The notes under the pieces were generated by a model. The model was not told the DNA's origin. It made no database searches and worked only from the letters and a program-made list of their open reading frames with translations. Below, piece by piece: positions 35,955 through 63,800 of a stretch of DNA of 64,000 nucleotides (its first letter is position 1; each line of letters begins with the position of its first letter). Origin of the DNA: Polytrichum commune (taxonomy: Eukaryota > Streptophyta > Polytrichopsida > Polytrichales > Polytrichaceae); the NCBI GenBank assembly GCA_950295325.1, contig OX485809.1, positions 40,393,081 to 40,457,080 of the forward strand, given 5' to 3'. The position numbers and the translations under genes were made by a program.

Positions 35955-36017
35955 TGGAGAAGAATATGATGAGATGACATGAAGGAAAGGGTACCAATAA
36001 TTGGGTATTATATACAC

Positions 36018-40201: not shown

Positions 40202-40471
40202 ATAATTTGTTCCCACCATACACATTGGAGGACTCCCACATATTAAACATATTGGCAATTATGACAATGCACGTGAAAATTCACAAAAAAATGACTTTAA
40301 AATTGGTGTCACGAACATCCGTGGGACAAATGTCAATGTCTATGGCTCTCTAATTAATGCTCACAAAATTAAAATTGAGCACCAAACTAGGTAACTTGAT
40401 GGTGTCATCCATCTAGCCCACCCACGAGACATCACCCGTGGATACCGAGGAATGAGCAATGCAGCTTTAAG

Positions 40472-43400
40472 CTAGAGGTCTTCTGTTGGTATCGCATCCT
40501 CGAAAATATCTGCATCAGTCATTTTCTCTCCTCTAGTGCATCGATCTAAATTATCCTTCGCGAAGAGAATTTGCCGAGCTGGGATGAGTACATTGTCATC
40601 GGAGGCATTCCTTTGTCTTGCCCATGATGCCACAACACAGTCTAGGGATTGATGGGCTGGTGCATAGTCCTTGAGCCTCGTCCATCGGAAAGATTTTGCC
40701 GTGTCCCATTCCTCATAACGTTCATCCAAGGTCTTCTTGTTCCTTTGGCCAAGGACCGGTACATAATAGACAATCTCAATGGAACGAGGATTAGGACCGA
40801 TATGCGCCAAATTCGGCTCAGAAATCACTCGTCCCATCCACACTGGATTAGGACAATCCTCACTAGGACATAGTAACACATAATGGCCGACCTTGATATG
40901 TGCGCCGGGATGGAAGGTCTCTACAGGTCGAGAACTAGCTGGCCCCACGTAAGCATAGTCAGTGAGGTTTTCCTCAAATAGATGCACATTATCCACATGT
41001 AGAGCTGGTGCAATGGAAAACCGTGTAGCGGGCCAAAAATGCTCGCTAAGTTCAGATGGAGTTGGTAGTAAAGGTTGATCCATAGCCGCAAGCACATTCT
41101 CCCAATATAAAATTGTTGGCGCAATGGACTCCATATATTGACCCGAAATATCTTGATCTGCCGTATCCTTCCAATACTTAATAAACCCTTGCACCCCAAG
41201 CTTTATGTTCACGGAATCTTTCATCGCCCTTTTCGGAACGGGACGGGGACACCCTATAAACACATACATACAATTGAGCTCAGAGCAGTACCACAGACTA
41301 ACTGCCCACGGGTGATCACCCGTGGGCCACACACTTCACACAATGATTTTTCCTAGTGCACTTCCAAAGCAATACAAAGAAGGGACCCACTAACCTGTAG
41401 GGAACATTGTCTTCTTTGTGATAGGGTCCACATTCCAAAGAGCAATTCCTCCATCAGGCACCCAATTTGGATCTGTACAATACACTTTGTACTGCATCAA
41501 TGGAACTCCTTGAGTGTCCACATAAAAACGGAATTGGTGCGCCTTGGAATGCCCAATAAGTCGATCTTGACCAAACTCATTGTAGTACCCCTTCACCCAT
41601 TCCTTGAAATCAGCAACCTCGTGGATTAAGGACGGGACAATAGTGGGTTCCCCAGCAGCCATGAACGATGCCATGAGATCTGGGAGTGTATGGCAATCCT
41701 CAATCTTCAACCTTTGTCCAAACCTCCCAAACATTGCATCCACATCCTCATGCGTATGTCCAACAATGAGGAAAGACACTCTGACTTCCCGAAATATTCC
41801 CTTTGCAGTCAGAGCTGACCAAAACAATATGTTGTATTTTGATTTGTTGTCCTTCGCACAATTGTCCATTTGAACAAGCAAGAGGGGTGGCAAACCTATA
41901 GCAGGAATATTGTCGAGCGGTGGCAATGGAAGTACTCTTGAACACTTCTCCACACCAACCACCAGTGCGTCGTGTAAAGGATCACCTATGGACGAAATAG
42001 GAATGTCTCTACTAGAGCAAACAGGTTGTATTTCAAGTTGACAAAGCAACTTCATAATCGAGGTGATAGTGAAGTTGGCATCGGATGGGTACATATCAAG
42101 GACATAATGCGCATAATTCACATCTGAGTGACCATGTGTAATCATCCCCGCAATAGATATGGGAAATCGCTCGTATTTGTCAACTCGTTTGTTTTTGTGA
42201 GCGAAAACGGGAAGCGCCGTTTTCCCATAATCCATTTTGTCATGGATTATACAAAGCACCTCATTGGGAGCATACTTTGACAAAATCCTATCTTTATAGT
42301 AACTGTTTCTATGAGCCTCCTGCAACGTTAGATGTCGAAGGCTAGCATTCGAGATGGCCAAGTGACCAGCTGTGTTTTTTGTGTGTATTCGCAACAAATC
42401 CTTGAAAGCTGCACAAGTTCCACAACGCGAGAAGTTGTCACCGGGGCTCTTTATAACATATTGCTTGTAATGTTGTCGATGTAGGCGGCTGAAGGTGGAC
42501 GTAGAGATAGGCGTGTACCCTAAGTCTCCGTCCAAGTTGTTCACTTCCTGCAACAAGTTGCACCACGTTGTTCCCACAGGCAGCATCTCTGTTCCTATCT
42601 TCTCACTAGTTGGAAGAGTCCGAGTCATATGGGGCATGGCGTCCGCCCTACCCTCAACCAATACTCCAAGGGTGGCTCGTGCCTGCACTGTATTCGCCCG
42701 TGGTTTTGTAGTTCCTGTATTTCCATGATCTCGGGATCTAATCCCCATCAAGCTTTCGGCCTTGTTCCTATTGAATTGTGCCCTTGATATCATATAGATG
42801 TTCATCCATGCACGAATGCATATTGTTCTCCCTTCCACAATAACCATATCACGGCCGTTTTGCTCATGTTTCTGGATCGTTTGGAACACCGACTGGGCTA
42901 TGAGCTTCCGACCATTGAATGGCAATGCGAAGTAGTGTTTCCGAATACTCATCAACAAAGGCCTTGGGAATACCTGGCAACAACGCTCCGAACAACAATC
43001 CACCGCTGATAACATCCGTGCATGCTCCTCAGTGGCTCCCCAAATTTTCTTCCCTGCTGGCCGAGTTGCACACATCCTCGCAGTGTTGTATTGGCGTTTT
43101 CCAAGCAAGCGCCGATGACTTTGAGCTTCCCGGGTCGCATTATGATGGACCAACAATATTTCCGCCAATGTATGTCCTTCAAATTTGGTGAGTGAAAGAG
43201 GCCAACGGTGCAAAGTGTTCTCCCAATCCCGCGAAATAACATTGTCGGTTGGGTTCATGATAATAACTCCAACATCCTCAGCCCCTAGGATGCTATTGTC
43301 AACACAATCCAACGGATTTGTGTTGCAAATCAATCCATCACACAAAGCATGGCCCTCATCATCAAACAACACAACGGCCTTCCCCTTCAGTTCCGTCCTC

Positions 43401-44530
43401 GACAACCCAATGTAATGTGGAATCTGAACATCGATATCAAGGGTTGTCAACACACATTGAACACAAGCTCACGGGTGTTCACCCGTGGGGGACAACATTG
43501 ACATATCAGCAGAATGTCCAAACTCATATAGCGGGTGAGCTCTACACCTCTCTTCACGCTACTCAAAAAAGTATGTGTTGCCTATCATATTCACATTGTG
43601 AGAAGTGCCCTTCTTACCAGTTCGCTTAAAGCCCCCACACCAAAACTAACATCCCTAACACTGCATTGTCAACAATTATTACTACGCATGTAGGTGTCAC
43701 ACTTGCTGGCTCAAGTGGTAACAAAATAGTAGCCATACAGGATAGTGCCAATATTCATGTTTAACGAATATCATCGTCATCATATATCAAAATGAATCAC
43801 GAAACTTCCAACTCGTAATTCACAACATATTTCACATACCTAACAGTGGATCTACAAAAGATCATAATTGCATCTACAACTATTGAGTATGTCACACACA
43901 TGATACACGGCCATCTTGTAACCTCACATATGTAGGGACAACTAACATACATATGATCTACTTCCACGGGTGAACACCCGTGGGGCCTTCCATGCATCTG
44001 CATATAGGAGTCTTCCACGGGTGAACACCCGTGGGCGCCCCCCACCGGGTCCGCGTATCTCCCACGGGTGAACACCCGTGGGGGCCCCCCACCGGGTCCG
44101 CGTCTCTCCCACGGGTGAGCACCCGTGAGCCCCCCCACCGGGTCCGCGTCTCTCCCACGGGTGAACACCCGTGGGGGCCCCCCAACCGAGTCCGAGTCTC
44201 TCCCACGGGTGAACACCCGTGGGGCCCCCACCGGGTCCGAGTCTCTCCCACGGGTGAACACCTGTGGGGCCCCAACCGGGTCCGAGTCTCTCCCACGGGT
44301 GAACACCTGTGGGGCCCCAACCGGGTCCGAGTCTCTCCCACGGGTGAACACCTGTGGGGCCCCAACCGGGTCCGAGTCTCTCCCACGGGTGAACACCCGT
44401 GGACTACTATGCCGTACAGTTTGGGGGTGTACGGACATGGGGTTGCCACGGGTGCACCCGTGGCAGAGTGGGAAAGCGAGTATGGTAGAACTCAGCTCAC
44501 CTCTTCCACCATGTGAGGCACACTCTCCAT
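40472..44530 (-). CDS. DUF7869-domain protein, candidate transposase of the A-element
   Basis: Three minus-strand exons join in phase: 44530-44501 (ten codons, MESVPHMVEE), 43423-41395 and 41253-40472, giving about 946 residues with no internal stop. The core at about residues 525-575 reads VQMDNCAKDNKSKY, then VSFLIVGHTHEDVDAMFGRFG, the hallmark of DUF7869 proteins. The D-N-C ... D-N and H-x-H-x-D-x-D residues look like a metal site, so a nuclease or transposase role is plausible but unproven. An upstream Cys pair (FSRCGTCAAFKDLL) precedes it. Intron 1 holds an 11-copy palindrome-A array and intron 2 a single perfect copy. A TATA box lies about 80 bp upstream of the ATG. The exon 1 junction is inferred from splice sites and phase. 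Confidence 0.8.
41305..41326. repeat. Palindrome A, perfect copy in DUF7869 intron 2
   Basis: CCCACGGGTGA and its exact reverse complement, giving a fully symmetric 22-bp palindrome with TGATCA at the centre, inside the 141-bp intron 41254-41394. Confidence 0.9.
43470..43487. repeat. Palindrome A copy near the 3' end of DUF7869 intron 1
   Basis: CACGGGTG / CACCCGTG arms around TT, about 50 bp before the inferred acceptor of exon 2. Confidence 0.85.
43964..44463. repeat. Palindrome-A array 1, eleven copies in DUF7869 intron 1
   Basis: Ten copies recur about every 44-50 bp from 43964 to 44405, with spacers of the form ACCGGGTCCGCGTCTCTC, and an eleventh shorter copy (CCACGGGTG/CACCCGTGG sharing the centre) sits at 44446-44463. 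Almost all have AA at the centre on the plus strand, so TT in the sense of the minus-strand transcript. Three neighbouring units share the same change (CACCTGTGG), which indicates recent unit duplication. Confidence 0.95.
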
Positions 44531-44603
44531 GGTTGCTCCTCAAGGGTGAAGGGTGAAGGGTGGTGGACTCAAATGAGGAAAAAGAAATGACCCTCCAAAT
44601 GGT

Positions 44604-44615
44604 GGCCTTTATATA
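44604..44615 (-). promoter_or_regulatory. TATA box of the DUF7869 gene
   Basis: TATATAAAGGCC on the minus strand, about 75-85 bp upstream of the ATG at 44530, supporting that ATG and the very short first coding exon. Confidence 0.6.
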
Positions 44616-46977
44616 GGTCGTGAGCATGGCCTCCAATTTCACATGAGGAAGTACATTGCATTCCCTCCAATCTCGTAAGTACTTAGACGTCATTCCCTCC
44701 AATTCCAAACGCCATGAGCTAATCACGTACTAACCTTCCTCATATTGAATAATGATGACCTTCGGTAGTGGGCTAAGACCTCGTATGTACATGGAGTGAA
44801 AATTTGGTACAAGGCGAAGGAGAGTCTTCGCGGTACCAATGATCATTGTGTAAGCTTTGCATACACCTCATACCACTACCGAGCATACTCATGCCAACAT
44901 TACAATATAGTTGATTACAATCACAAGAATCATTTGTAACTAACCTACGACGAGGAGAAATTGGTAGAGTTGCATAATTCTTCCGTTGACGCATGACAAT
45001 TAAGGGGTTAATATCCCAGCAAGTGTAACACACTTTTTTGTTAATCCAAATTCTAAACTTACATAATGTCACCTTTTGGGAAAAAAAAATTGAAAGTTAT
45101 ACTCCCACATAAAATAGTGGTTGTTTGCACATATATATACATGACTCCTTTACACATTGAGGTCCCCCCTGAGTTGAGGTGATCCAAAGTGATGTGAGAG
45201 GTTCGTCATCAATGAGAAGCGTGTTTTTCTTTTGAATTAAATCTTCAACATTCCTTTTAGAGATATGAACCACCTAAGATATAAGACCATGCCATGGGCC
45301 AAGGAATAAATGCACATTAACTTCTACTTGATATTGTGATATGATCTTGTCTTTTTCTCACGGTGTTTTTTAGTCGACCACCAATTATAACATAATAATG
45401 TCGCAAGCATAATAATGTCACTTACCTAGTTATAATGAGAAATTACCTATTATTCCATACCCCACAATACTTTAAAGATGTCCAATACTTACAATATTGT
45501 GATAGTATGTTGTGAAATATTTTGTGACTTACAATGAGCGATGCAATATTTTGTGACTTATAATGAGTGATGGAGTAGTTTGCAAAATAATGTCAATCCC
45601 GCAGCCCCCATTATGATTCTAAATAATGTTATGAAATGAATCATTTATAGGCCTAGTGGGTATAATATCACAAAATATCAATCATTGTTATGATAGTTAT
45701 GTAATGTCCTTGTTTCTCTCATATTATGTGCTACATTATACTATTGCAATGGTGCAAGCATAGTAAAGTGGACCAAGAAAGTGCTCCGGTATATGAATGC
45801 CATGATTTTCTTGGTCAAACCCCTATAAGTAGTAGCAAAATGTTGTTTAAAATATATATAAAAACATTATCCAAACGATTTTGAGTTTGGGGATTATTGA
45901 ACTACTATTTAAAATTGGGGTTAAATACATTTGAGTAACCTTTAAGTAACCTTTCCAGAATGTCGAGCTCCAATCCATGGGTATGACTTGTGGACTTGCC
46001 ATAAATATTTTTGAAATCACCTTTAAGGAGAATATAATGGCGTAATTTTGGACCGTGTAGCCATAGATGTTGGAGGCATGTGGGATTTGTTGTTGGCAAT
46101 GTTCAAATTTAGTACTTTGGTACTTAGGTTGTCAATCCATGCCTACAACCGACCCTACAATGACAATCATATTTTGAGAGTTTGTGATTGACTATGCTAG
46201 GTTATAATAAGAATCTATGTGATAGCATGGTTATACTTACGTGAATACCGGTCCCTTAGATGTGCACTTTCTAAAGGACATTCGAGGCCGTAAATATGCA
46301 AGTCAACCAATACATTAACTGTACAACCACACTTGAAAGGTCAAGTATGAAGTTGAGTTTAGGCACATGGGGTGGGATTGAGATATATGTTGGAGTAGGC
46401 AATATCAATCAAGTCAAGTGATAGGGTATTTCAAATTCGTGGGATCTCGCAAACAATGGGTTTAGGGTTTAGGGTTATTTCTTTCCTTATCATTAGTCTA
46501 ATTTGGGTCATCATCATAAGTTTGCTCTTCATTCTCTTCTTCTGAGTGATATGTTGGAGTTACTACACTAAATATTTTAGTTAGTGTCGTATGGTATTTT
46601 ATGTCATTCTAGCAACATTTCTAGTGACATTTATTGTAATCAAGGTTACAAATATTTGTCATCCCAACTTACTTTTAGTTCTTCCAAATGCCAATGAATC
46701 CAACAAAGTTTGGTATATTTTGCATCCGTACATTTTTGCAATGAAATGTAGTCATGGATGATTAAAATTTGGATCATAATCACAATGTCGACAATGTTGT
46801 AAATTTGTGATGCCCAATGTTTTTTTTTGAAGGAATGACAAATAATCTTAGGTTTGGATTTATTGTTGATGACACTAAACGGGCAGTTGACAATTAGTAT
46901 TGAGCAACACAAATAGAGTTGATGACTCTAACTACAATTATGTTTATTGTGTTGTGGAGGTACGTTACATGGATGAT
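44616..46977. other. Non-coding interior of the A-element, left part
   Basis: AT-rich DNA with no recognisable gene. It contains two and a half TTTAGGG units near 46457-46477. Short frames on both strands lack motifs and exon borders. Confidence 0.4.
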
Positions 46978-48240
46978 GCTCCCGTCTAGGTAGTAACATG
47001 ACATAGAAGGATGGAATATATGTGGGAGTATTTGGATGTATTGAGGGCCCAGTGGAGGGGTGGCAAGTGGGTGTGGGTTGACTTCTTTGGTGGATTGCAT
47101 TAATGGCAATACTTATGATATCAGGGAAAGAATGTGACAACAAGGAATAAGATTTGAATTGAGAACATCCACACTCTAGGGTTTCAAGATGTTTCATCGC
47201 ATTCAAGTATGCCTACCTAGACCATTTTGATATGAGTTCTTAATTGGGTTCTTGATATGAACACCCGCTTCAACGTATTTGCATCTTACAACATTCTCCA
47301 ATATCGATGACACATGGAGGATGGAGCCGGCTAGGTAGGAACATGACATAGAAGGATGAAATATATGTGGGAGTATTTGGACATATTAAGGGCCCAGTGG
47401 AACTTTGGCCCGTGGGTGCATAGTTCCCAACCCAGGGGGTGTACTATGACAGACATGTACGATAATATGCCAATGCATAGAAGGCTCAAGGGGTGGACGC
47501 TCCATACCACGTAGGAACATATTAAAGTGTAAGAAGGGGTGTCACTTGCCTCATACTAGCACAAAATATACATAAGTGTTAGTTTCATCGTATTCAAGTC
47601 TTCATTCATTATTGTCATATGGTGGTAGTCCTCAAGTTCCTAGAACACTCTAAATTGAGAATTTCGCATGTCTCAAATTCATATATGGACCACAACAACA
47701 TGGTCTAATGCTTGGGTCTTCCTACCTAAACCACTTTGAACCCGTGTTCTTAATTGGGTTCTTGATATGTCACACGGAGGATGAAGCCGGCTAGGTGGGA
47801 ACATGACATGGAAGGATGAAATATATGTGGGAGTATCTGGACATATTAAGGGCCCAGTGGAACTTTGGCCCGTGGGTGAATAGTTCCCATCCCAGGGGGT
47901 TTACTATGACAGACATGTGGGATTATATGCCAATGCATAGAAGGCTCAAGGGGTGGACGCTCCATACCACGTAGGAACACATTAAAGTGTAAGAAGGGGT
48001 GTCACTTGACTCATACTCATACAAAATATACACAAGTGAGAGTTATTAATTTTTCTAGTGTGTATAACTACAAAGGATACAAAGAATTTTGAAATAAATG
48101 TAGATGTACACAAGGGGACCCTAAGGTTTCGGAGTTAACTTAACAATGTATGTGTTAGTTTCATCGTATTCAAGTCTTCATTCATTATTGTCATATGGTG
48201 GTAGTCCTCAAGTTCCTAGAACACTCTAAGTTCTTAGGTT
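46978..48240. repeat. Direct repeats of a 270-bp segment inside the A-element
   Basis: Bases 47311-47580 and 47771-48040 are close copies 460 bp apart, both with GGAGGATG.AGCCGGCTAGGT, GGGCCCAGTGGAACTTTGGC and GGGGTGGACGCTCCATACC. A diverged fragment lies at 46985-47060. A second shared segment (TAGTTTCATCGTATTCAAG ... AGTTCCTAGAACACTCTAA) is at about 47580-47654 and 48155-48231. No coding capacity. Confidence 0.85.
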
Positions 48241-48289
48241 TTGCTCCTTAGACTGTGTCTTGGGCGTTGCGATTTTGTCATCGCCGGAT

Positions 48290-49500
48290 TGATGCAACTC
48301 TTGATGATGGGTATGATGTTGTTGCATAAGCAAATCAACTTGAATTCTGACGTGATATTATCAAAGAAATTAGGGGGTTGGAGTGATGCCCACCCCCATG
48401 CTAGAATTTCAGATTGCACATAAATATAACTATACCCCCCTTTTTTAAAGAAATCAAGAAATCCAAAGGAACCCATCTTGGCACTAAGATGGTGAATATG
48501 AGATTTCTTGATACTTAAAAAAAAATTGCCAACACATTTGGGCTTTTGCTTGACATTAAAATTTGAACCTATATTGTGGGGGTGGGGATCACTCCAACCC
48601 CCTTTCAATCCTTGGCTAGGCTTATGCTTGGGTTTGATGTGGCATTAGCAAATCAATTTGAATTATGATGTAGCATCAGCAAAGTAATCAGGGGCCTAGA
48701 GTGATGCCCACCTGCACACCATAATTTCATATTACATGAATGTAAGTAAAGTTCAAACATGTGGGCAAGGAACTTTGGGAATTTGTTTTTAAGAATACAT
48801 CAACAAATTCAAGAAACATAATCAAGCACCAATAGGGTCTTCTGTGATTTTTATTTAATTTTAAAGAAAAATTGTCAACATATTTGGCTTCTTTTCATTT
48901 ACATTGCATTTGAAACTCTAGTGTAGGGGGGGTAGGCATCACTCTAGTCCCCCTTTCCAATGCTTGACTAGGCTTATGCTTGCGGTTTGTTGTGGCATTA
49001 CACTCATGAGGTTGTTGTGTACTTAGGCTTGGAACACAATATTCATTAAAATGAGAGTTTTCCAGTGAATTGAGAGTACATAAAGCAACCTATTAATCCA
49101 AGAATGAAATGAAAACCACTGGATAGCTATAGAGCACAAGTAAAAAAATAACATTTGATTTTCCGCCATAAATTCCACCGTAGTTTCCATTAAAATGAGA
49201 GTATGTTAAGCTGGGAAATCGACTCATTTAGGTCGACTCAACCTAAATGAGTTGATTTTCCAACTTAACATACTCTCATTTTAATGGAAACTACACGTTT
49301 GAAGTATAATCTAGTATTTATCAACCTAACATGACTTTTAGGTGTCCAGGTGGCCAATATTATTTTGAGAGGATCCCACTCTCTCAAAATATTGAATATC
49401 GTGTTTTGGGTATGATGTGGCATTAGCAAATCAATTTGAGTTTTGATGTGGCATTAGCAAAGCACATGAATGTGAATAAAATCCAAACCCAGAGTATATT
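48290..49500. repeat. Repeated inverted-repeat units (MITE-like)
   Basis: Two successive units each open with a phrase like AGGGGGTTGGAGTGATGCCCACC (48372 region and 48690 region) and close with its inverse (near 48585 and 48930). Each is preceded by GATGTGGCATTAGCAAATCAA-type sequence, which also starts a third partial unit near 49405. They look like tandem miniature elements with ends of about 30 bp. Confidence 0.65.
49180..49294. repeat. 115-bp near-perfect hairpin
   Basis: The left arm GTAGTTTCCATTAAAATGAG and onward is matched by its inverse ending CTCATTTTAATGGAAACTAC, with the two arms meeting at an ACTCATTTAGGTCGACTCAACCTAAATGAGT-type centre (given by its core GGTCGACTCAACC). Only a few mismatches occur. 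The TAAAATGAG motif is the same as in the A-element terminal repeat. Confidence 0.88.
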
Positions 49501-49544
49501 TGTATGTTAACAAATTATGTTAATGACTATATGTAAATGCAACT

Positions 49545-49911
49545 TTTTATTTATTACCAAGTGCTGAAAATTATGTTACCAAGTGTTGATAATTATGTTA
49601 CCAATACTTGGACATATTGCTAAGTGATATTAATTATCTCACTAATACCCAGATTTCGTACTAAGCACTGATAATTTTCTTACTAACTCCCACCTATCTT
49701 ACTAGGACGTAGTTAACCAAATCTTAATACGTAGTTATCTTACTAATACGCAGTTATCTTACTAGCTAATTATCTTACCAATATTTAAATATCTTACTAA
49801 GTGCCAATAACTATATCACTAATACTTACTTATCTTACTATGTACTACTAATTAATATACGAATGTGATGCCTACATTACTAAGTACTAATAATTCTTTA
49901 TCACTACCTCC
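49545..49911. repeat. Degenerate tandem repeats of TTACTAAGTACTAAT type
   Basis: Irregular units of about 20-30 bp with ATCTTACTAA and TACCAAGTG variants. Low complexity, no coding potential. Confidence 0.7.
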
Positions 49912-50079
49912 CTAAACCATCATACCGCCCAAACCCCCTCCGCATCGTCCTTAAGCCGCCGATTCCGAAATCCCTTCGCATCCCGAGATCTCATCCACCA
50001 CGTCCCTTCGTACTAATCACTCATTATGTGGCCTTTTACTTCCACCATCCCGTCATTATGGCGTTTCTTGAATGGGACC

Positions 50080-51071
50080 CACTCTCTCATTGTCTCTCTC
50101 TCTCTCATTCTCCCTCACTCTCATTCTTCCTCTCTCTCATTCTCCTCTTTCCACCATTGAAGCTTCCGACCCAAAGCTCCACTTCAAAACTCCCTCTTCT
50201 TTCTTCCACCACTTTTCTGGACTCTCTTCATTCTTGCTGGACTCTCTTCATTCTTTTTGGACTATCTTCATTCTTTTTGGACTATCTTCATTTTGGACTC
50301 TCTTCATTCTTGCTGGAATACCACTTTTCTAAATTCTTGTCATTTCTCTTTCTCTCCACATTTCTTCATTCTCTCCATTCTCTTGTTCCTCCTACTTTTC
50401 TTGTTTCTCTTATTTCTCCACCCTCTACTCACTTTCCTGATTCTCATTCTCTTTCTTGCTTCAACTGACTTTCTTGATTATCTTCTTTCTGTAGCTTCTA
50501 CTCACTTCTCCATTCTATTGCTTCATCTTGCTTCCACCCACTTCTCCATACTCTTGTTCAAATCCAGAATGTGGCATTGCTGAAATGTGGAGAAAAGTGA
50601 GAGGATGAAGAAAGATTGGAGAGAAGTCCAATTCTGGTACTTGTAAGCAATCATTTCATTCTCCTAATCTTCCATTCTATTCATGCTTTGGTTGCATTGT
50701 AGTGCTTGTGAAGTCCAATTCTGGAATTGCTGTTTGTGGTGAACCAGGGTTTGTTTGTTTCTGATGGTAGGGTTTCAATTGTGAGAATGTGGTGCATTTC
50801 TGGTGCACTAGGGTTTCAATTCGTTGGAGAATCTCACACCCAAATATGTTAGAGAAATTTAAGTGAGTTGTGTGATGCTTGGTTGTGATGAATTGAGTGA
50901 AATGCTAGAGGAATGCTCAAACTAGGATGCAATGAGGGTGTGTTCCTAATAATGTGAGACCAGAATTTCTTGTTTTTTTGCTTTGAGAGCATGAATGTAT
51001 TTCACATGGAACTAATCTTTTAGGGTTTTGTTATGTGCAGAAACAAACATTGGATTTGAACAACATTAGGC
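50080..51071. other. Pyrimidine-rich stretch and leader region upstream of composite gene 1
   Basis: Bases 50080-50560 are strongly C/T-rich with repeated TGGACTCTCTTCATTCT-type units, giving Leu/Phe/Ser-rich frames that I treat as non-coding. Such CT tracts are common in plant promoters and leaders. The remainder up to 51071 has no gene. Confidence 0.45.
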
Positions 51072-51093
51072 ATGGCTCCACCAAAGAATCCTG
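51072..51093 (+). other. Possible 5' exon or upstream ORF start of composite gene 1
   Basis: ATGGCTCCACCAAAGAATCCTG followed by a strong donor GTGAGT gives seven codons (MAPPKNP). Joining it to any visible downstream acceptor leads quickly to a stop, so it probably acts as part of a spliced leader with a short upstream ORF, not as the N-terminus of the main protein. The intron that follows carries palindrome-A array 2, paralleling the short first exon plus array of the DUF7869 gene. Confidence 0.45.
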
Positions 51094-51167
51094 GTGAGTA
51101 TGCATAAATTCTCATTACCTTGGCCCTAGGTGTGAAAGGGGTTGTCTGGAAGTGGTTATTTCAAGGG

Positions 51168-51507
51168 CCCACGGGTGTTCACCCGTGGGCCTCCTCACTC
51201 GCAACTGGTGGTGGGGTATGCCCACGGGTGTTCACCCATGGGCCTCCCCACTCCTAACTGGTGGTGGGGTTGGCCCACGGGTGAACACCCGTGGGCCTCC
51301 GCACTCCCAACTGGTGGTGGGGTATGCCCACGGGTATTCACCCGTGGCCCTCCCCACTCCTAACTGGTGGTGGGGATTGCCCACGGGTGAACACCCGTGG
51401 GCCTCCCCACTCGCAACTGGTGGTGGGGTATGCCCACGGGTGTTCACCCGTGGGCCTCCCCACTCCTAACTTGCGGTGGGGTATGCCCACGGGTGAACAC
51501 CCGTGGG
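51168..51507. repeat. Palindrome-A array 2, seven copies with 53-bp period
   Basis: Copies start at 51168 and recur on average every 53 bp to 51486, separated by spacers such as CCTCCCCACTCCTAACTGG and TGGTGGGGTATG. Central bases alternate irregularly between TT and AA, so units lie in both orientations of the near-palindrome. It lies between the leader exon at 51072 and the exon with the histone-like start. Confidence 0.95.
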
Positions 51508-51689
51508 CCTTTCCATTCTCTTGGAGGGGGCCATTTTTGGGTAGTTTTCTTTTGGCTTTCTTAGCTAACACAACATTGTTCCACCACAGGTTTATGTTTT
51601 TGAAGGTTATAGACAAGACCATGTGGTAGACAGTTGGTGTTTTATTCAGGTGCATAGAGGTGTCGCAGTGACCTCTCATTTGAATATAG

Positions 51690-54600
51690 ATGGCAAGAAC
51701 TAAGCAAACGGCTCGTAAAGGTATAACCACAATACCTATGTGCACGTCAATGTTATATGAATTCTAAAATTATGAAAATTGTACACTATGCGGAGTACTA
51801 ACACGTGCATTTTCGTCTTCAGTATCTGGGGGCGTGGGAAGAGCGGTGAACTACGATATTGAGGTGTTGGGCCCAGAGTTGCAATGGTTCATGCAGTACA
51901 GTGGTTTCGGGGAGACAACGGTCCTCTCGCTATATACGAAGACTGGGCCTAATTCCACGTGGAGGAAGTTCCTAAATGCAAAGCATGTGTTGGACATCCA
52001 AGCGGATGGGAGCCGCGTTCTGATTATGTGTAAGTCGTCAGAACGCAAGAAGGACTTCAAGGTTGCAGGATTAGTGGATACATTTTCGTATGCGGATGTG
52101 AACGAAGAACTCAACAATGAGGGAGAGAACATCCGCTCATTAAACGGTGAATTTCTCACCTATTGTATAGAATACAGCGAGACCAACAAGCATACAAGGT
52201 CCGCGGAGGAGAGATCAATCATGATCGAGCAAGACTACAAGGCTGCTCTACGGCGAGTGACGGTAATAGTTGAGGAGGCGAAGGCGGCGAGGTTGGAGGA
52301 AAATTTGAGGAAGAAGCAAATCCGAAACGGGAAGAGGAAGGATCAAGGTGAGGAACGTGCTATGTCGTCTAGGAAGAAGACAAGACCCGCCGAAGATCAT
52401 GAAATGATTGTCGAAGACACACCCGCCGAGGATGTTGTGGCGAAGAGAGGCAAGAAGAAAATTGTCGAAGATAGTCCATTTCTTGAGCTCGAGAAGATTC
52501 CGAGGCAATCAATTCATGGGCCTCCAGAAAAATCGGTTGGAGACAGATTGATGGATATGGAATTGTTTAAGAACAAGTACAACAAGGTTTGGATTTTTGG
52601 TGAAGGCGTCAATGGATTTGTAAATATTGCAAATATAGAGCGGGGCGATGCAGGGTATAACTGCCGGCCCATATCCGACGCACATTTGAGGGAGATGAAG
52701 ACATGGTTATTCAACTATGCCTTCATACCGAAGATCCATCCCAACTTCTTGACAATCGTTCCATCGGATAGGCGAAGGAAACCTACAAATTTTGAGGAGG
52801 TGAAGAACAAATCGTTCCACGTGGTGAATGGACAACACACGTTAGCAGCATGTTTGGAGTATGTGAATGATGCGGCCAGCACAGATGAGATGAAGAGGTT
52901 TTTCTCGACATGGCCCTGTAATGTGGTCTGGGCCCCTGAAGGTGATGACGACCCTCTGTTTCACTTTTCTGGTGTTCTAAACCTGGATAGTGAGTATAGG
53001 AAACATTTCCCATCATTTACGGAGTGCATTCAGCACGCCAGGAAGACGTGGATTAGGCGAGGAAGGCCTGACCGAACCGTACGCGAAAAGTCCAACAATG
53101 CGGAAGCGTTTAAGAAGTGGAAGGTATATTCCAAACTTGTGACTTTTGAATTTATCAATTGCTTGATCCCCACGGGTGTTCACCCGTGGGCCACTATGAT
53201 GCTGTTGGTGATTGATAGAAATAGAAGGAGTTGTATACATGGGGATTGATATATGGCCGCTATTTGATACAAGCATTTGTTACGTGCGTCATGTGGACGT
53301 TCCGCGTGGAGAGGGAGACCAACCTCGTCATGAAGCACGTGTTGCCCGTGTTGAGAGATGACATATGGGAGAAGTGGGAGAAGATATTCAAGGAATACGA
53401 GAGTGGCGAGTACGTGGACCCTAAGACCGGGCTTCGTATGAAAGATACGAAGGGTTTCAAACCAAGGAAGGTGGTCAAGAACGATCTGAAGCAGTTTCGA
53501 GGCTTGACAGAGATGGAGCTCGACAAGGCAGCGGATCAAATCCTCTCCGCCAAAGATGGAGAGGATTACCCTAGGCATACCTTGAAGACTGTGCGCGATT
53601 GGGCGGTGAATAGGAAGAAGAAGAATGAAACCTATATCGGAATGGCACAGTGTTTAGACCCGACCCCAATGTACATCGTCAATGTGGAGCAGAAGGAGAC
53701 TATTGATCGGAATTTGTGGAGATTGTGGAAGCGAGTGAATAACTTTGGAAAACTCCAGCGAGAACGACTTGTGGACTTGCTTGGAGCGGAGTACCTTCTT
53801 GCCGCCATGAACCCAACAAGGAAGAGACTACCTATTCCCGACCGGTTCAAAGAAGGAGTGCGAAACATACTAGGTAGCCATAATACGGAGGTTTCGCCCG
53901 CCCATGTCGTGTTGTCTATTGACAACAATTACGCGCTCAGCGGTGGGACAGTGATCGCACCAGTACTGCATGCTTACATGGACACACGTTTTCTGCCCGG
54001 AGTCTAGGCGGGAATAGGTAGTGGAGGTCGTATGATGGAGGTTGTCGACTCCACACTGCAAGGTCTTCGTCGCGCTTTTCCTGGCATTTTGGAGTCCCCC
54101 CAATTGTGGACTGTGATTTCGGAATATCCGGACCGGCATTTCATACACAATGTTCTGAAGACACACTTGCCGAGAAATGTGAGATTTTGTGACGCAGTCT
54201 ACCATGGAACCAAAGAGGAGAAAATTGCTTCTCGCGATTGCTTCTTCGAAGCAAGTGCTCTTCGTGTTACAACCTGCGTTTTTCCTAGTAGAGGCGAGGC
54301 AAGTTCGGAGGTGGCTGTGCGGCTCTGTGGAGGACGGAAGATGCTGGACGTGCATGAGCCTGGGCGATATGCACGTTATTCAGAGAAAAAGGCTTATTCC
54401 AATGAGGAGGCCAAGTCTTTATTCAAGGGGGAGTTGAGAATGCAGACCTATATAGATATCATCAAGCCTTCTTGTCTTGAGGGGTCATTTTTTCTGAATA
54501 TTTGTGGAGGCAACAAGGCGCATATAGTGGCACATGTAAGTATTGAGCATCTTCTCCCAATTGTGATATTCTGGATATACCACGTTATGTAGATGATGTC

Positions 54601-57600
54601 CTAGAGAGCCATATCCTACACCAGGTAGGAAGGCCCACGGGTGAACACCCGTGGGCCTGGACATGCACCTGCCTTATAACCCCATGTTTGATAGCTCTCC
54701 AGATTGTTATTTGTTTCCGAATCAATAAGTTGGGAATTTCACAATAACGAATTTGACATTTAATGGCTTTCTCATTCAATGGATGTGTTCAGGCCTTGGG
54801 TATGAAGGTAGTGAATATTGTGCCCGTGGAGATGGTGGAGGTGGCGAAGACAAAAATGATTTCCGCACTTGACTGGAGCCTACAAAGGTGGAATGAAGAA
54901 GGTAAAATCGCTGCCCGAGACCCGGAAGAAGAAGGAGAAGATGATATCGATATTGAATCGATTATTGAACGCGCATTGCGTCGCAAGCCTGTCAATGATG
55001 CTCCCCTGGAGGAGGAAGAGGATGAAGAGGATGAAGAGGAGGCGGTGAATGAAGACAACCCAGTTATTAACCTAGGGGAGTCTGAAAAGGAAGTGGAAGA
55101 GGAAGAGCAAGAGGAAGAGCAAGAGCAAGAGCAAGAGGATGCTGTGGCCGTTAACGCCGCAATGGCGGACGCCATGGCGGAGCTCCTCTCGGAGGCCGAG
55201 GAGGAGGCCTTTAATTTCAAAACTTCAATGGTGATTCAGGAGGACATGCCACAGGTCGAGGTTCCCCACGGGTGTTCACCCGTGGGGGGTGTGGAGGGGG
55301 AGAGGTTGGGGGAGGCGGTGGGGCAGGAAGTTGTTCATAGGGAGCCTGAGCATAGTGTTAATATCGCGGTGGGATCTTTCTCGTCTGGGATCCCATCTAC
55401 ACCCGGACGTGGGTTTGTTGAAGTTGATACTTCTACACGAAATGAAGAACAAGCAGATGTTCGTCCTATGGGAGAATCCGAGGAGGAAGAGCGTCCACGG
55501 TCCGCGGAAGAGCCTCAATTGGAGGCTAATCCTGGCAGAAGGTCTACATCGAGACCATCTGCAAGGAAGAAGGTGAAAGCTCCCCGAAGGGGGAGGTCAT
55601 CTCTACGTCCCCCTAGAGTTGTAGAACTTTCTCGATCTGCGGAGGCCATGGATCATTCTAGTCTTGAACGCGAGGTTGAATTTGGCGAAGTAGCGGATGT
55701 GGAGGATGAACTTGTGGACGTAATCATGTCTGAAGCTGCGCATGACGAAGGTGTGAGCACGGATTTGAACGTCAGCTCACCTGTGGAGGAGGTCGCCGCT
55801 GCCGTGCTCGAAGTCCTAGGCCAAGGACGAATACACAGAGATTCCCCTGGTGTTGTGGTTGCAGAGGAGCCCACAGCTAGTGAAGCAGAGGTGATCATGC
55901 GAAAACAAGTCATATGCTTGGATAGTGATGATGATATGCCCGAGAAATGTGTGGAACTAGACGTGAGGGTGAAGGTTAGAGATCGAGTTCCACATCGGGT
56001 TCGGGGGACGTTTGCGGACTACATGACGGACGATTCCGAGGACGAAGACTATGGGATGCCAGGGTACAACAGAGTTAAACTCAACTTTGTTGATTACCCT
56101 CACCCTATGCTTGCTTCGAGACCCGACACGGGCAAGGAATCGGATGGGAAGGAGAAGGTGCATTTTGCACCATTTGTGGACAAATTTTTGGCAGAGGTTC
56201 CCGAGAACGTGCGATTGAATCTTGCGCATTTATACAAGTCGTATGACTATCACAAGATGTTCGCTTATCTCTCCACTCCAGCGTTTTGTGAAGCAGTGAA
56301 GGTGAAACATGTTCTACATGCCGCTTCATTGAAGAAAATGAGAAAGAGATGGACCGCGTTTGAAGCTCCAAAACATCGTGGAGGACGAGGTCAATTCCCG
56401 GGATCCTCCGCCGCTCAAGCTGGCAGTGTTGTGGATTCTACCATGGAGATCATCGACGTCAGTGAAGTGCCAGATTCTCCAAGGAGGGATGTCCATGTTG
56501 GCCCTGTTGCTGAGGGTCAACCGTCTTCCTCCAATTTGGTTGCGGCAGAACGGGAGGTCATTCCCCCGAGTTCTCATGACGACCCTGCACTCCTAGACCG
56601 AGCTCCAGGTATCATATATGGTGTTATTTGATTGGAATTGGTCCCACGGGTGTTCACCCGTGGGTCCCCTGGTTTGTAGTTTACAATTTCCACGCAAATT
56701 GTTAGATCATGTCCAATACTTGATTGATATTTTGCCCACGGGTGTTCACCCGTGGGAGAGTATGGTTTTCAGCATGTGGATCTCATAAGTTATGTGTTGA
56801 TGTGGTCACAGGTCCTACAGCCACGGCCGAATTACCTCCTTCGGTACGATGTTCTCCCCTAGCTCGCAAAACTAATCAATAAATGTGCAAGCATTATTTT
56901 CTATTGCGGATGCATACATATGTCAACCCAATCTGTTGTTTCCTAGTCGAGAAATATCCATTAGAATCTATTGTTTCCTTAGATTAAAAACCTTTAGAAT
57001 GACTTGAGATTTTGTCATCGCCAGATACTCACCTCTCCAAGCACTGTTGTCCATCGGAGAGAGAAGATATGGTTAGTGCTGGATGTCAACGGGATCCTTG
57101 TGAGATCAACAAAGTGCGACAATGTCAACACCAGGAAGTCTCTTGAATCACAATATAGCCCCCTTATAACTGGGGAGTTGGCTCCCCTCTTTCTCCCATA
57201 TAGTGCCTTAATACCTAGGAAAGGACTGGGACGCTTTCTGCGTTTTGTTCTTTCGAACTTCCATGTTGTCATCTGGTCGTCGAAGCTCATGAAGAATCTC
57301 CAGCCAATTGTGCGACACTTCTTCAAAGGGTGTAGACATCCAGAGTATGTAATTGGGCAAGAACTATGTGACACTCTGAAGGATGAGAGAGGACAAGTTC
57401 TTCCTAGTCCTATGAATTCCGATTCAAGCTTCTTCGTGAAAGACCTGAGCGCATTTTTTGAGTGGAGCCGGACACATCCTCTGCCGCACATGAAGCAACC
57501 CTCTCATAGGACCACACTACTTGTTGATGACTCCCCTTACAAATGCATCCCAAACCCTCCTGGGAGCTACGTCAACCCTCCCCCATTTCTGTCGAACCAA

Positions 57601-57789
57601 AGCTTGGACACTCTGCATAATTACCTACAAAGGCTCTTGAGTTCTGAACAATATGTGCCAGATTTTGTGGGGAGCAACCCTTATCCATTAGGCCAGGGAC
57701 CCTTCAATCTAGAGTTGCCAAATTCTCAGATTTATAAGCAATCATTAGCTAGACATACAAGTCTGAAATCTGCCCGTATGGTCCCATAG
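51690..57789 (+). CDS. Composite gene 1: H3-tail mimic, ParB-like, DNA methyltransferase-like, FCP1-like
   Basis: Six exons join in phase: 51690-51720, 51823-53123, 53225-54535, 54793-56608, 56812-56843 and 57025-57789, giving 1751 codons plus stop. Residues 1-10 are MARTKQTARK, identical to histone H3 with its initiator Met, then VSGG. Residues 288-350 are ParB-like (GYNCRPISDAHLREMKTW ... VNGQHTLAACLEYV). A beta-class methyltransferase-like region follows, with motif IV as VVLSIDNNYAL (677-680 is DNNY, not DPPY) and a motif I-like LNICGGNKAHIVAH/ALGMKVVNIVPVEMVEVA at about 868-898. Then come an acidic stretch, HGCSPVG from an exonic palindrome (about 1040), VICLDSDDD (1254) and, from 1517, an FCP1/HAD-like domain (LVLDVNGILV, VVIWSSK, VDDSP) with Asn at the second catalytic Asp. 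TAG at 54005-54007 (codon 705) interrupts exon 3. Domain joins rest on splice phase; two adjacent genes are the alternative. Confidence 0.68.
53169..53190. repeat. Palindrome A in intron 2 of composite gene 1
   Basis: Full arms CCCACGGGTG / CACCCGTGGG around TT, in the 101-bp intron 53124-53224. Confidence 0.92.
54005..54007 (+). other. In-frame TAG in exon 3 of composite gene 1
   Basis: The frame is open for about 780 bases before and 528 bases after this TAG, up to a good donor, and both sides belong to one methyltransferase-like domain. It is therefore a premature stop in this copy, consistent with a C-to-T or G-to-A change. Readthrough or recoding cannot be judged from DNA. Confidence 0.8.
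54634..54655. repeat. Palindrome A in intron 3 of composite gene 1
   Basis: Full arms around AA, within intron 54536-54792. Confidence 0.92.
55265..55286 (+). repeat. Palindrome A inside a coding exon
   Basis: Full arms around TT within exon 4 of composite gene 1. Its 22 bases are read in frame as part of VPHGCSPVGGV, in a poorly conserved-looking acidic linker, and the frame stays open on both sides. No splice sites flank it closely enough to remove it. Confidence 0.88.
56643..56756. repeat. Two palindrome-A copies in intron 4 of composite gene 1
   Basis: Copies at 56643-56664 and 56735-56756, both with TT centres, fill much of the 203-bp intron 56609-56811. Confidence 0.92.
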
Positions 57790-58025
57790 GCGCAGATGTC
57801 TGTGTAGATCCCTTGTTGGGGCCGCAACTCGCTCGTACATTGTATGTGAAATAAGTGGAACTAAAACTTTTTGGACTTTTTGGAAGTTGCTCTGGTTTTG
57901 TGGACTTATTTCATGCAAACATGATATGGTGATGAATGTATGCCACTCGGATTCTACTACCTTGCAACACTGTTGTGTTAGAGAAGTTTCGACTATTTAC
58001 AACCACATTGAACGTTTGGCATTAT

Positions 58026-58046
58026 CCCACGGGTGTTCACCCGTGG
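58026..58046. repeat. Palindrome A downstream of composite gene 1
   Basis: Full left arm and a right arm lacking its last G, TT centre, about 240 bp after the stop of composite gene 1. Confidence 0.88.
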
Positions 58047-58258
58047 CAATGTGGTGGTTGATTCAATGAATGTACCAGAACACTTGGACAATGTTAGTTG
58101 ACAACTTGGGAGTTTGGGTTGTTATGGGGAACATTAATATGTAGGACTTAGTCGGCTATAATTCAATTATTTTTGCACATGTTCATCTTGCACCCACTGG
58201 CTCCTCTTGCACATAATGTCCTGCTTCCATGGAATCTTATGTTCTTGTACCATAACAG

Positions 58259-58819
58259 CATTCCCCATTTCCAACGCGACCTAAGAACTATATTGCCACT
58301 CCACCTCGCGGACACCGTCCTCCGGATGCTAACGCCGACTTCGCCGAAGTGACATCTCCATGCCCTAAGGTAATTTATTTTCCACATGAATCTCATTTTT
58401 TGTGGTTGTGTTTCGTCCTGGGGATTCTAATATCATTTTGGCCTATGTTGTGTTAGACACATATGCTCCAAACAAGCGATGTTGCGCTTGCGGTGGCTGT
58501 TCCGGTCGCGGTCGTGGTTGCAGCTCCGGTCACACGCGCTCATGTGAAGAGACACCTTTCTCTCCAAACCACACAGCCTAGTGAGCCCACGGGCTCGGGA
58601 AATAGTTCTGGATGTTGGAGGTGTAGTTCACCCAATACCACCTCATCCATGTCTGATTACATGGCTGCAAGGGTGAAACAACTTCGAGAAGCTACAGCTT
58701 TGACGGCGGAGAAAAAACGGCTTGAAGAACTCAAGCGCAAGCAATGTAGTGTAGCTCAAAGGATACCCCATGACAAGATGTTGAAAATGATTACTGATTC
58801 ATACTCCTCTTGTAGATAG
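58259..58819 (+). CDS. Small two-exon ORF of unknown function near the right end of the A-element
   Basis: Exons 58259-58369 and 58457-58819 have AG and GT borders and join in phase 0 to give about 157 open codons to a stop. No clear start codon was found upstream, so it may be 3' exons of composite gene 1 by alternative splicing, or a separate gene. The second half contains a charged helix-like stretch (MSDYMAARVKQLREATALTAEKKRLEELKRK) given here by its core VKQLREATALTAEKKRLEEL, likely a coiled coil. In another frame, exon 2 starts with a Cys-rich run (CCACGGCSGRGRGC). Confidence 0.4.
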
Positions 58820-58844
58820 CCGGACCTTTATGGTTATAGATTGT

Positions 58845-59382
58845 CTACGGGTGTTCACCCATGGATACAACAATTCATCTACTTTGTGACATATTTTGTT
58901 CACACTGTGCCAATTTTTATCAAATCCAAATGATGTTTTGACCCTTAGTTGTGTAGTCGGGTATGACTTGTAGACCTTCCTGCAAGTGTTATGGATCTTG
59001 CATCGTGTGTTGCATGCCGTTGGTTGGTCACGGGCGTTCACCCGTGGTTGGATGTTTTTGTATTAAGTGCCCATGATGGTTTTTATGATTACACCCATTA
59101 TATTTGCATACATTTGTTCACATGCGCATGGTTGTTCCTTAGTGGTGTCGACTTATGTTGTGTTATGGATATAGGTTCATTTGTTGCGGGGTGTTGGTTG
59201 GTCACGAGTGAACACCCGTGGTTACAAGTGGGCTAAGTTTCACTTTCGGCAAGTACAAGGCATTCATCTCACTTATATATATACACCAATGTGCATGAAA
59301 TAGTGTGTTAGTCTATCTCAATGACCTTCCTCTTGTTCTAAACCTTGTCAATGATGGCAATTCACGGGTATTTACCCGTGAA
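58845..59382. repeat. Four diverged palindrome-A copies near the right end
   Basis: Copies at 58845-58864, 59029-59047, 59203-59220 and 59361-59382. The last (TTCACGGGTA, a short centre, then TACCCGTGAA) has changed outer arms but keeps the symmetry, which suggests the palindromic form has been kept while bases changed. Confidence 0.8.
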
Positions 59383-59439
59383 GCACGTTCCCAATGCACG
59401 TTCCCATCGGTACGAATTGTCTCATAATGGTCCAATTGG

Positions 59440-59459
59440 CTCATTTTAGTTAATATCCC
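59440..59459 (-). repeat. A-element right terminal inverted repeat
   Basis: Exact reverse complement of the left 20-bp end. Just inside lie TTGGTCC-like and TGGGAACGT motifs matching the left end in inverted order. Confidence 0.88.
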
Positions 59460-60742
59460 CATATAGCCTCCACGGTTTAATACCTTTCCAGTTCTAAATC
59501 AACCATTTAGATCTTGCAACTCTTAATTAAATAACCACCCTTTGTTTGGTCAAGATGAATTCATGTTGTAGTTTGATGCGTTTTAATCAATGTGAAATCA
59601 GTGGACAAATAAATTTAGAAGTGTGTGCTGGTATGTGGGAAATAATCAATTACATTGGGAATGGATTTCATCATCGGAGTTTAATCTGTATCAGAAAATG
59701 GCTGTAATCTAAACTTTGCAAAAAAATCGTTCAAGCTTGGTGAGGGTTGTCCATTCAAGGTATTAATGGTGTAGATCCAATGAATTTTGGAGGAACGTGC
59801 AAGAAATGGCTGTCACTTGAACTTTGCACAGGAAAATAAATGGACCTCATATGGGTGCCAGACTTGATTTTGTTTTCTTCCTTCATCTCACAACATCTCT
59901 AATACTGTTGGATGCAATTTGCATATCACTTGATTACCCACATTATGTACACTTGCAGACGCTTGCTGGAAATTCACTTGAAAGTAGGCTAGACTTTGAG
60001 AGGTATTTACCAGTGTTGGGCAGGTATATGACTTTGTTAATAACCTCAGGCTTTCTGTGAGTACAGGCCTTTATCTACATTGCTTCTTTCTCTCGATTCT
60101 GTGATCTGAAAGACCGTCCTCGCGAAGTTGATCGATAGGGGAATGCACAGATTTCTGATATGCGGTGGAGCGGTTGTTGGATTAGGTTCCTCGTGGTTCA
60201 ATCTTGTGAATTGGCTCAAATTGGTGATGTCTTGGACTAATCCGGCTGCTGCTTGAATGACTACAGAGCTTGCTGGAAGAAGGTGAGGAGATGACTGTTG
60301 TTGGGCACGTCAAGGAGAAGAAATTCCTTCGTCTCAGGCGCTCCTTGTGAGGGCCACAGGGAAATTGCCTAGTGTTATTCTAGTAATTAGGATAAGTGGT
60401 GCAAGGCTGCAGCTGCATGAAGCTTAATTCCATTAGAATGTTACTTTAGAGATGCACATGATCATGCTTGGCTACCTGTAGAAGGGACTGCTGTCACAGT
60501 GGTATTAAAGGTGGGGATGCAAAAAGCAAACTCTATGTATGAGCAAAGCATTTGTAAATGCTCTTGAGAAAGTGAAAATCAATAAAGAAAAGGTGTTTTA
60601 CACACCACTTGTGATCAAGTCAGCTGAGAAATGGAGGTAAGGGGTGACCAATTGAAGTTTAGTTGGTGAGGGAGGACGCCCCCCACCCAGCAGATTTTCA
60701 CTCGTCAGGCACCTCGGTTGCGGCTTCGTGGACAATTTGCTC
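59460..60742. other. Presumed intron or flank of the outer element, right of the A-element
   Basis: No gene is recognised. The stretch is ordinary AT-rich DNA with short frames only, ending at the single palindrome-B copy. Confidence 0.4.
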
Positions 60743-60855: not shown

Positions 60856-63800
60856 GAGTTGGAGGGAATGGATCTCTCCGATGATCTTGTGGTCTTGGAG
60901 CCCTCTGTGGAGGAGGAGCAAGTGGAGGATGCTGTGGACTTGAACAACGTCGAAGAGCTGGAGGATATTGAGGAGGTTGTTCCAGAACAACTCAAGCAAG
61001 TTGACCGGGTGAACACCGACGTGCAGGAGGTAGTTGATTTAGACACTTATGTCTTCCGTTCTTGCACCTGCCCTCCTTTAGAGTCGGTGGTTGAGTTATT
61101 CTCGTGTGTACTAAATTGAATCGGATGTTTGTAGACTCCCTCTAGACTTCCCGAGGAACCTCCCGAGTCGGCTAACCCCGAGGAGAGTGAGGTCAATCTT
61201 CGAGCGAAGCAGAAACAAGATTCGACGGCAGTCATCAATCGCCTCCGCATTCGGCCTCTTGAGAAGTCTCGACTTTGCATCCCCCTCTGCCGCTTGCGGG
61301 ATTTGCCACTCGTTCGGCCCATCAACGAGTTGGATGTCCAGAGGTTGGAGAACGAATTTGTTACGGGGTACCGAGATGGTGACCGTGTTCTCTATGTTTC
61401 CATCTACAACAACAAGGACGACATCTTGGAGGTCACGGAGGACATCTCGTCCACCTGGAGTCCGTTGTGGAAGCTTGAGAGTGAAAGATTCGATGCACGG
61501 ATGGCCGCCGACCCCGATCTTGTCCACTTTGTGGGCAAGATGTTCTACGTGTGGGAGGGGAACCACCGGTTGACCGCTTGGTGGCGCCACGTGAACATGC
61601 TCCATCCTACGGAAGAGGCGTGGCATATCTCTCCCTATTGTATTGCCTTGGATTCGGGGAAGCATAGTGGCGTTCTCATGAATGCCATGAACGACGTGAA
61701 TTGGTATGTCTCTCTCTATTCTTTGCTACTTCATTCTTTGTTTGTGAGTGTCTTCTCATCTTGTCTTCTTCAATTTTTTGTAGGTCTATCGAGAACGACC
61801 ACGTCAAGTCCAGCCTCCCCTCCAAGCTTCACCGCATCCGCTACTTTGGGACCTTGGAGTTGGAGGACTTCAAGGACCTCATTTCCAAGGAGGACTACTT
61901 GGCTTGTATCAATGCCAAGAGGAAGCACAACACTTGGTACCCCTTGACCATCGACGTCTTCGTCTCCTTTCTCTACAAGGTAATCACTTCCCCACACTTT
62001 GATTTCTCTCCTTTCAATTTCCATCTTCTTCGTTGGCTTACCTTTGCTTGCAACCAGAGAGAGATCTCCGCCGCCTCCGACGCTGCAGCTAGAGCTTACA
62101 AGGATGAGACTCCGGCCGATCAGAATGAGAAGTATGTGGCCATTGCCAACTCCGAGAATACCGACGCCTTCTTTGATGAGGTGCTCCTCTTCATCTTCTC
62201 TTCTCCTTCGATTTGTCCTTCATGATTTCTTCTCGATTTTGCTAACTCACCTCCAATTTCCTCATCTAGATCAATCGGCACTTCTCGGTGAACACAGTCC
62301 CGGACATGACCATCGAGAAGCTTTCTAAGGTGGCCAACACTCATGTCCCGTGTCATTTCAAGGCGAAATGGCTCCGTTGGTGGAATTCCACCATGACTGT
62401 CCGAACCGGCAACAAATTCCCTTCCATTGTGCCCCTTAAGGAGAGGGTCCTCGAATCCTGGCTTCATAAGGCCTCTTTCTGGGCTCAGGTGAATCTCTCC
62501 CCTCCTTTGGATTGATTGTTTTCTCTACGGTTGTCTTCCTCATTTCTTGTTTTTCATTCTATGACTACAGTTGGAGGACAGGGTTGATTTGGAGTTCAAG
62601 TCCTTAGAGGCTAGCCTTGGTCGCGCCATCAATTGGGATGTGCAAGGGGGTGTGTTACGTCCACCAAAGTTCGTGGATGGATGGAGGATCCTTCTCTGGG
62701 ACCACGCCTTCCCGCATTACTTTGAGGAGAAGTCAAACACGAAGTTCCTCAAGGGCACGAACCTCACTGAGATTGAAGATGGTATCAAGATCATTCACCG
62801 TGTCCTTTATAGGTATTTCTTCCTCCTCTCCACTTGTCCTTCATTTTCTTTGCAACACTCGAACTTCTCTCATTTTTTCCCATGTCTTTTGCTTTAGGTA
62901 CATCTATCACGAGCTTATTCCGAAAGAAGCTCTTTCTGCCTCCTTTCTTCCGGTCTATGTCGAGGAGTGGGTTCTGGACTCCTCCCCGAATTTCATGTAC
63001 ACTAACGAGCACGATGTTTACCCATTTGCTCACCTCAAGCATGCAGGGTGGTATTTGGACTGTTCGAAGGGGTTCGTTCCTCCCTCGGAGGTTCATTTGT
63101 TCACCTCTTTGAATGCTGAGGCACCCGCTGATGTTGTCTTTCACGAGCCCGTGGTCCCCGAGGAGTCGGTGAAGGGTACGAAGGCATCGAAGGTTGTTAA
63201 GGAAATCAAAAGCAAGAAGGTGAAGGCGGTCTCGGGTACTCAAGCTTCCCAAGCCACTGTGTCTACTCGTTCTGCTACGAAGGCCGCCGCCGAGGCTTCT
63301 GCTGCACCTGCTGCCACCTTTGTAGGTAGCCCATCCCTCCCTCTTGCCTTGCATGCCCCCGCTCCTTCTCACAGCACAGCCACTGCCCCCTCTTTGACTC
63401 GCAAGAGGAAGGCATTCGCAGCAGCAACGAGTGCTACATCCTCTGAGACTGCTTCTACCTACAGTCTCATTGAGAATGTAGACATCGGAGTGCTCATGGA
63501 CCACTACACGAAGACCAACTCCCACCAAGCGGCCTACCTTCGCATCGAAGAATTCATTGTCAAGGTAGGAGTCCACTTCTTTTTTCATTCTTGCATTCAT
63601 TTCTATCTTGTGAAGCATTCCTCTTCTCTTCTCAACCTTCTTCTTTGCTCTACAGGTTGGTGTCGGTCGGACTCGCCTTAACAGGAATCCCAAGTCCCAT
63701 TCCGGTATCGACCTTCTCCTTGTCGATGTACCGGACAATCTCCCGATGCCCGCCATCTCGACTTCGCCATCCGACATTCCAGCGTGGAACCGCCGGGGTC

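Follow-up and report, generated by a model that had tools for sequence, protein, structure and literature searches.

A histone H3 tail mimic predicted at the start of a DNA transposon gene

The window analysed here, 64,000 nucleotides of DNA (C7:40393081-40457080) from a 408 Mb genome whose contigs include seven of 42-78 Mb, raises a question: does a gene of a mobile element begin with a genuine histone H3 tail, and what might the element gain from one? The segment at 51690-51720 on the plus strand (ATGGCAAGAACTAAGCAAACGGCTCGTAAAG) encodes MARTKQTARK plus a final G, that is, H3 residues 1-9 after the initiator Met, exactly as the original prediction had read it. K4, K9, R2, R8 and T3 are all retained, and S10 is replaced by V, which was likewise foreseen. 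The string MARTK occurs only once in the window in all six frames, and base composition predicts 4.5e-9 occurrences of MARTKQTARK in the window and 7e-5 per Gb, counting both strands, so the view that chance identity is negligible holds. A search of the genome with the H3 protein gave no match anywhere in the element, the remainder of this gene included; the protein is hence otherwise unrelated to H3, as claimed, with no sign of the histone fold of H3.

In order to avoid selecting on the peptide itself, the genome was searched with exon 2 only, which returned at least 101 matches (98 of the 801 candidates were scored). The exon count rests on the 57 copies in which the alignment to exon 2 starts between residues 1 and 33 and so keeps its 5' part; the sequence upstream was read in all of them. 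The mimic exon is recognisable in 55 of these 57, with a decayed remnant in L074 and none in L077, and it is also present in the homologous protein P0003 (source jgi); the refuting condition named beforehand, other copies lacking the exon, thus does not hold. Among 54 copies counted for the peptide (L063, L074 and L077 being set aside, of which L063 carries T7), 37 encode MARTKQTARK, 13 MARTKQTTRK, 2 MAKTKQTTRK, 1 MARTKQIARK and 1 MARTKQTSRK. Pattern searches of the whole genome concur: the exact MARTKQTARK pattern finds 54 sites (17 H3 genes and 37 element copies), and a broadened one finds 72 (the same 17 and 55 element-type exons, with C6:42679128 taken by exon pattern alone), while the reversed control yields 0 in both cases. 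Adding L060 to those 55 gives 56 exon sequences, in every one of which A1, T3, K4, Q5, R8 and K9 are invariant; the variants are A7 to T in 17 and to S in 1, R2 to K in 2, and T6 to I in 1. Some of the copies that have lost A7 still have an open exon 2. The peptide is intact in all seven copies of subfamily A, to which the window copy belongs, and in all four of subfamily E. P0003 retains MARTKQTARK but reads through the intron that follows, and as its identity to the host copies compared does not exceed 82%, it probably represents a separate lineage. Of the 42 homologs found, no other shows the exon, most gene calls beginning inside exon 2.

Whether this short exon is joined to the remainder of the gene is best judged from the way its splice signals have been kept. 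Intron 1 (51721-51822, plus strand, 102 nt) has its donor GT at 51721, a TACTAAC branch site and its acceptor AG at 51821-51822, and the join is in phase 1. The reading frame agrees with the proposed in-phase addition of VSGG at 51823, giving a predicted product that begins MARTKQTARK-VSGG-VGRAVNYD. The donor, the TACTAAC-like branch site and the acceptor are all retained in the subfamily representatives (A to E, with the window copy as A); across diverged copies the intron measures 97-108 nt, and in diverged subfamilies the branch sites lie about 25-28 nt 5' of the AG. A GT directly follows the exon in the copies inspected, save for L077, where the exon was not found, and L073 has lost the acceptor AG. 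Upstream of the mimic exon, a likely 3' splice site of the 5'UTR at 51640-51649 reads TTTTATTCAG here and TTTCATTCAG in most other representatives; since this TTTYATTCAG acceptor is kept, the full exon 1 is probably 51650-51720, with 51690-51720 as its coding part. The start of exon 2 is also informative. In the distant relatives L092, L093 and L094 (21-29% identity), an ATG lies a few bases past the likely splice acceptor, at the exon 2 start; the matching position holds M in subfamily E and P0003, and V or L in subfamilies A-D. With the old start Met lost in A-D, an upstream start is needed, which the mimic exon, being in phase, could supply. VSGG would then most simply be former leader sequence, and the coincidence of its GG with H3 G12-G13 may be due to chance.

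We infer from these signals that the mimic exon is spliced and translated. It could be argued instead that the exon is never joined to exon 2 in life and that MARTKQTARK is merely part of a short upstream ORF, as the intron of P0003, which happens to stay open, might hint. Given the donor, phase, branch site and acceptor kept in introns that have otherwise diverged (the AG of L073 being the exception) and the disappearance from exon 2 of what was presumably the original start Met, we consider this very improbable.

Between the five subfamily representatives the exon has accumulated at least eight substitutions, all of them synonymous, although the representatives were picked among A7 copies, which favours such a result; subfamily C has an A7 copy (L085) and a T7 copy (L071). 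Under neutrality the probability of this outcome ranges from 1.4e-5, assuming that one in four random changes is synonymous, to 6.6e-4, assuming 40%. The adjoining intron is 43-55% identical in seven of the ten pairs and 73-83% identical in A-B, A-C and B-C, values given without a random baseline. By the Nei-Gojobori method, exon 1 has 2-5 synonymous differences and no nonsynonymous one in each of the six pairs of A, B, D and E, as against a pN of 0.08-0.17 in exon 2. Exon 1 is not unique in its conservation, because 26 of 427 ten-codon windows are equally free of residue change in A, B, D and E, and two of the 26 overlap exon 1. Subfamily B by itself shows little sign of constraint. Of the 22 CHG sites there, the one in codon 7 varies most, with A7T in 10 of 31 copies; this may be decay driven by methylation, or else an inherited variant in which the H3K4-side features of the tail persist and those for K9 readers do not. 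Taken as a whole, the sequence comparisons make it very probable that the transposon gene has a genuine H3 tail kept by selection.

The host H3 genes bear on how the tail was acquired. The ten first codons of the element gene and of the host H3 genes encode the same residues, but similarity ends with the tail, the codons differ, and the element has an intron at K9. Among the 17 exact-start H3 genes compared (three divergent H3-like loci on C3 and C7 being left out), 14 keep one open H3 frame from end to end, and in the other 3 the frame is interrupted close to codon 27 or codon 57. As none of the 17 has an exon end at K9, the idea that a host H3 exon was simply captured finds no support. Set against five of the coding types present among the host H3 genes, the element exon departs from them at 6-9 of 27 positions, and its R2 codon is AGA where host H3 has CGN. 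An old partial capture and a convergent build-up of the tail would fit this pattern equally well.

Two readings that deny the tail any role as a mimic meet the same evidence. In one, the exon is a relic of captured H3 DNA, a coding start and perhaps a promoter, whose peptide serves only as start codon context. The exact identity over ten codons and the GG found past the splice at H3 positions 12-13 would suit such a relic, yet a peptide without function should be free to decay, and no such loss is seen in subfamilies A and E; the synonymous-only divergence among representatives, the missing intron in the 17 exact-start host H3 genes and the differences from host coding types also speak against it, and we regard it as unlikely. 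In the other, a short basic N-terminus, serving localisation or stability, has come to equal H3 by accident. Basic peptides are common in nuclear proteins, but any basic mix would do for such a purpose, whereas K4, Q5, R8 and K9 are fixed in all 56 exons, and the exact string is expected far less than once per Gb; an accident of this kind seems scarcely credible.

The carrier of the gene is a DNA transposon of 19,488 bp at 39975-59462, with a 4-bp target duplication, sitting inside another repeat. Five copies at 98-99% identity begin at 39965-39975, two end at 59462 and 59464, and the ends were refined with the target-site duplication and two empty sites. ATAG stands on either side (39971-39974 and 59463-59466), and a second copy on C7 is flanked by ATTA in the same manner. 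The terminal inverted repeats (39975-40008, plus; 59429-59462, minus) match at 30 of 34 positions. The empty sites, L102 and L103, are paralogous loci without the insertion, and over 197 bp their sequence agrees with the joined flanks at 99.0% and 99.5% respectively; together with the inverted ends and the duplication, they establish the element. Divergently to the mimic gene runs a DUF7869 gene (41390-43453, minus; PF25273, E 5.5e-46), which carries a domain of unassigned function and is presumed to be the transposase. Among 56 copies of the mimic gene (all those read but C6:5458949), 49 have a divergent DUF7869 gene upstream within 60 kb, at a distance of 12.9-16.9 kb in 32 of them; eight lie more than 19 kb away and may belong to other copies of the element. 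The window also holds CRM domain and SAGA-Tad1 genes, a gene content that suggests a plant.

Beyond its tail, the mimic gene can be followed through several further exons. Exon 2 (51823-53123, plus) encodes VSGG, possibly a PH-like folded region, a basic linker and, by eye, a ParB-like NGQH stretch. This stretch has no sequence match in Pfam, PHROG or the PDB, and the predicted structure of the ParB-like part has pLDDT mostly below 50. Exon 3 is modelled at 53228-54535 (plus), with support from the homologs P0040-P0042. The window copy may be broken, because exon 3 has an in-frame TAG at 54005-54007; none of the three homologs has a stop at the matching position. The modelled exon 4 (54793-56631, plus), similar in P0042, encodes an acidic region with VICLDSDDD, which we take to be a SUMO-interaction-like motif. 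An ORF with similarity to NIF/FCP1-like phosphatases (57004-57789, plus; PF03031, E 8.8e-12) is perhaps a further exon of the same gene; a copy of subfamily B on C5 contains this phosphatase region too, at 86%.

If the protein does contact DNA, the element itself contains candidate sites. One palindrome occurs 29 times inside the element and not once, allowing up to four mismatches, in the other 44.5 kb of the window. Seventeen of the 29 sites fall in two arrays, one at 44011-44402 (period 45, 8.5 copies) and one at 51166-51510 (period 53, 6.5 copies), the latter inside what is probably an intron in the 5'UTR of the mimic gene. The palindrome core is TGTTCA/TGAACA in the A and B loci inspected and mostly CGTTCG/CGAACG in D and E.

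We suggest that the mimic gene is an accessory gene of the transposon, with an anti-silencing role like that of the VANC proteins and a built-in histone tail, and give this mechanism as a whole a probability of roughly 0.45. After Met removal the protein would begin ARTKQTARK, an H3-tail mimic (ARTKQTARKVSGGVGR being the A7 form of the tail peptide). Its DNA-contacting part, ParB-like by eye, would bind the palindromic clusters of the element, where many H3 tails would then be displayed as decoys or docking points for the host enzymes and readers of the H3 tail. The element would thereby withstand heterochromatic silencing and maintain expression of its transposase. DNA binding, tail recognition and anti-silencing are here steps that we infer. 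The H3K4 side of the tail would most likely be engaged, and the K9 side could be as well. Chromodomains require A7 to bind methylated K9, and 18 of the 56 exons have T or S in its place, so a role for K9 readers appears less secure than one for the H3K4 side. A stricter version, in which fake tails are tiled along the arrays to form a parS/ParB-like centre so that H3K4 and H3K9 enzymes and readers hit the decoy and not the nucleosomes, strikes us as doubtful.

It is also conceivable, if on balance unlikely, that the tail serves targeting and not anti-silencing: methylated by the host and bound by a reader, it would act as an address label that takes the element's protein or integration complex to chosen chromatin. 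The near-invariance of the residues used by H3K4 writers and readers (A1, T3, K4 and Q5 in 56 of 56, R2 in 54 of 56) would serve this purpose too, and there is a plant precedent in the chromodomain-carrying LTR retrotransposons (PMC3350952). Against it, the candidate transposase is a separate gene, and the palindrome arrays better fit a DNA-binding factor that acts in cis, as the anti-silencing mechanism proposes.

Histone mimicry is known in viruses and in host proteins, and established mimics of the H3 tail include influenza A NS1, the self-methylation site of G9a/GLP, K126 of DNA ligase 1 and SNAG domains. By sequence, the element protein fits the definition of a histone mimic: as in these cases, a short part of a protein that is not a histone resembles H3 and could in principle be engaged by H3-directed enzymes and readers. 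In contrast to such mimics, which are short or inexact, it has residues 1-9 exact at a predicted free N-terminus, and it is carried by a transposon gene in dozens of copies. Among the matches listed in open-licence PMC full text, we found no description of a transposon protein bearing an exact H3 tail under selection. The ParB/sulfiredoxin-like proteins and their parS sites offer a second likeness, in the NGQH[TS][LV]AA stretch, its plausible surrounding pattern and the palindromic candidate sites; the eukaryotic transposon setting and the missing profile or structure match set the element protein apart from ParB.

Another close parallel is with the VANDAL elements of Arabidopsis. According to PMC5735166, VANC, a second protein of a DNA transposon, evolves faster than VANA; short element-specific motifs stand in tandem in non-coding DNA, including an intron of the element's own gene; and motif types vary between related families. 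The present element resembles them on each count. Exon 2 of the mimic gene is about 81-85% identical between A and B and 71-73% between A and D or E, compared with 91-94% and 85% for its DUF7869 partner, and thus diverges the faster of the two. Unlike VANDAL, the element has a DUF7869 gene in place of VANA, a 4-bp target duplication, a longer palindromic motif and the H3 tail. Identity with VANC proteins is ruled out by domain content, neither DUF1985 nor DUF287 having a Pfam match in the exon pieces (E to 0.01) or in P0040-P0042 (E to 10). How transposon anti-silencing proteins act once they have bound DNA is stated as an open question in PMC5735166. The tail could be exchanged or mutated one residue at a time and comes with the natural variants A7T and R2K, which would make this question testable, in an element that may be using a fake histone tail against the machinery that silences it.

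We also note several features next to or apart from the element. A neighbouring repeat (matched over about 31.1-39.1 kb) has its own palindrome array at 37532-38215 (CAATCCCACGGATCCGTGGGATTG, period 64); elements of this genome may carry private palindromes. Two distant relatives of the mimic protein (L093:60-900, L092:279-690) adjoin repeats of yet another palindrome, with the core CACTCGATCGAGTG. A second ORF of ParB-like appearance (VWEGNHRLTAW, by eye) lies at 61135-61944, in the sequence that received the insertion. Finally, gene pieces on the minus strand at 31601-36017 contain, by eye, a SWIM-like CxC...CxH stretch, and the repeat that holds them has eight other matching places at 94-98%.
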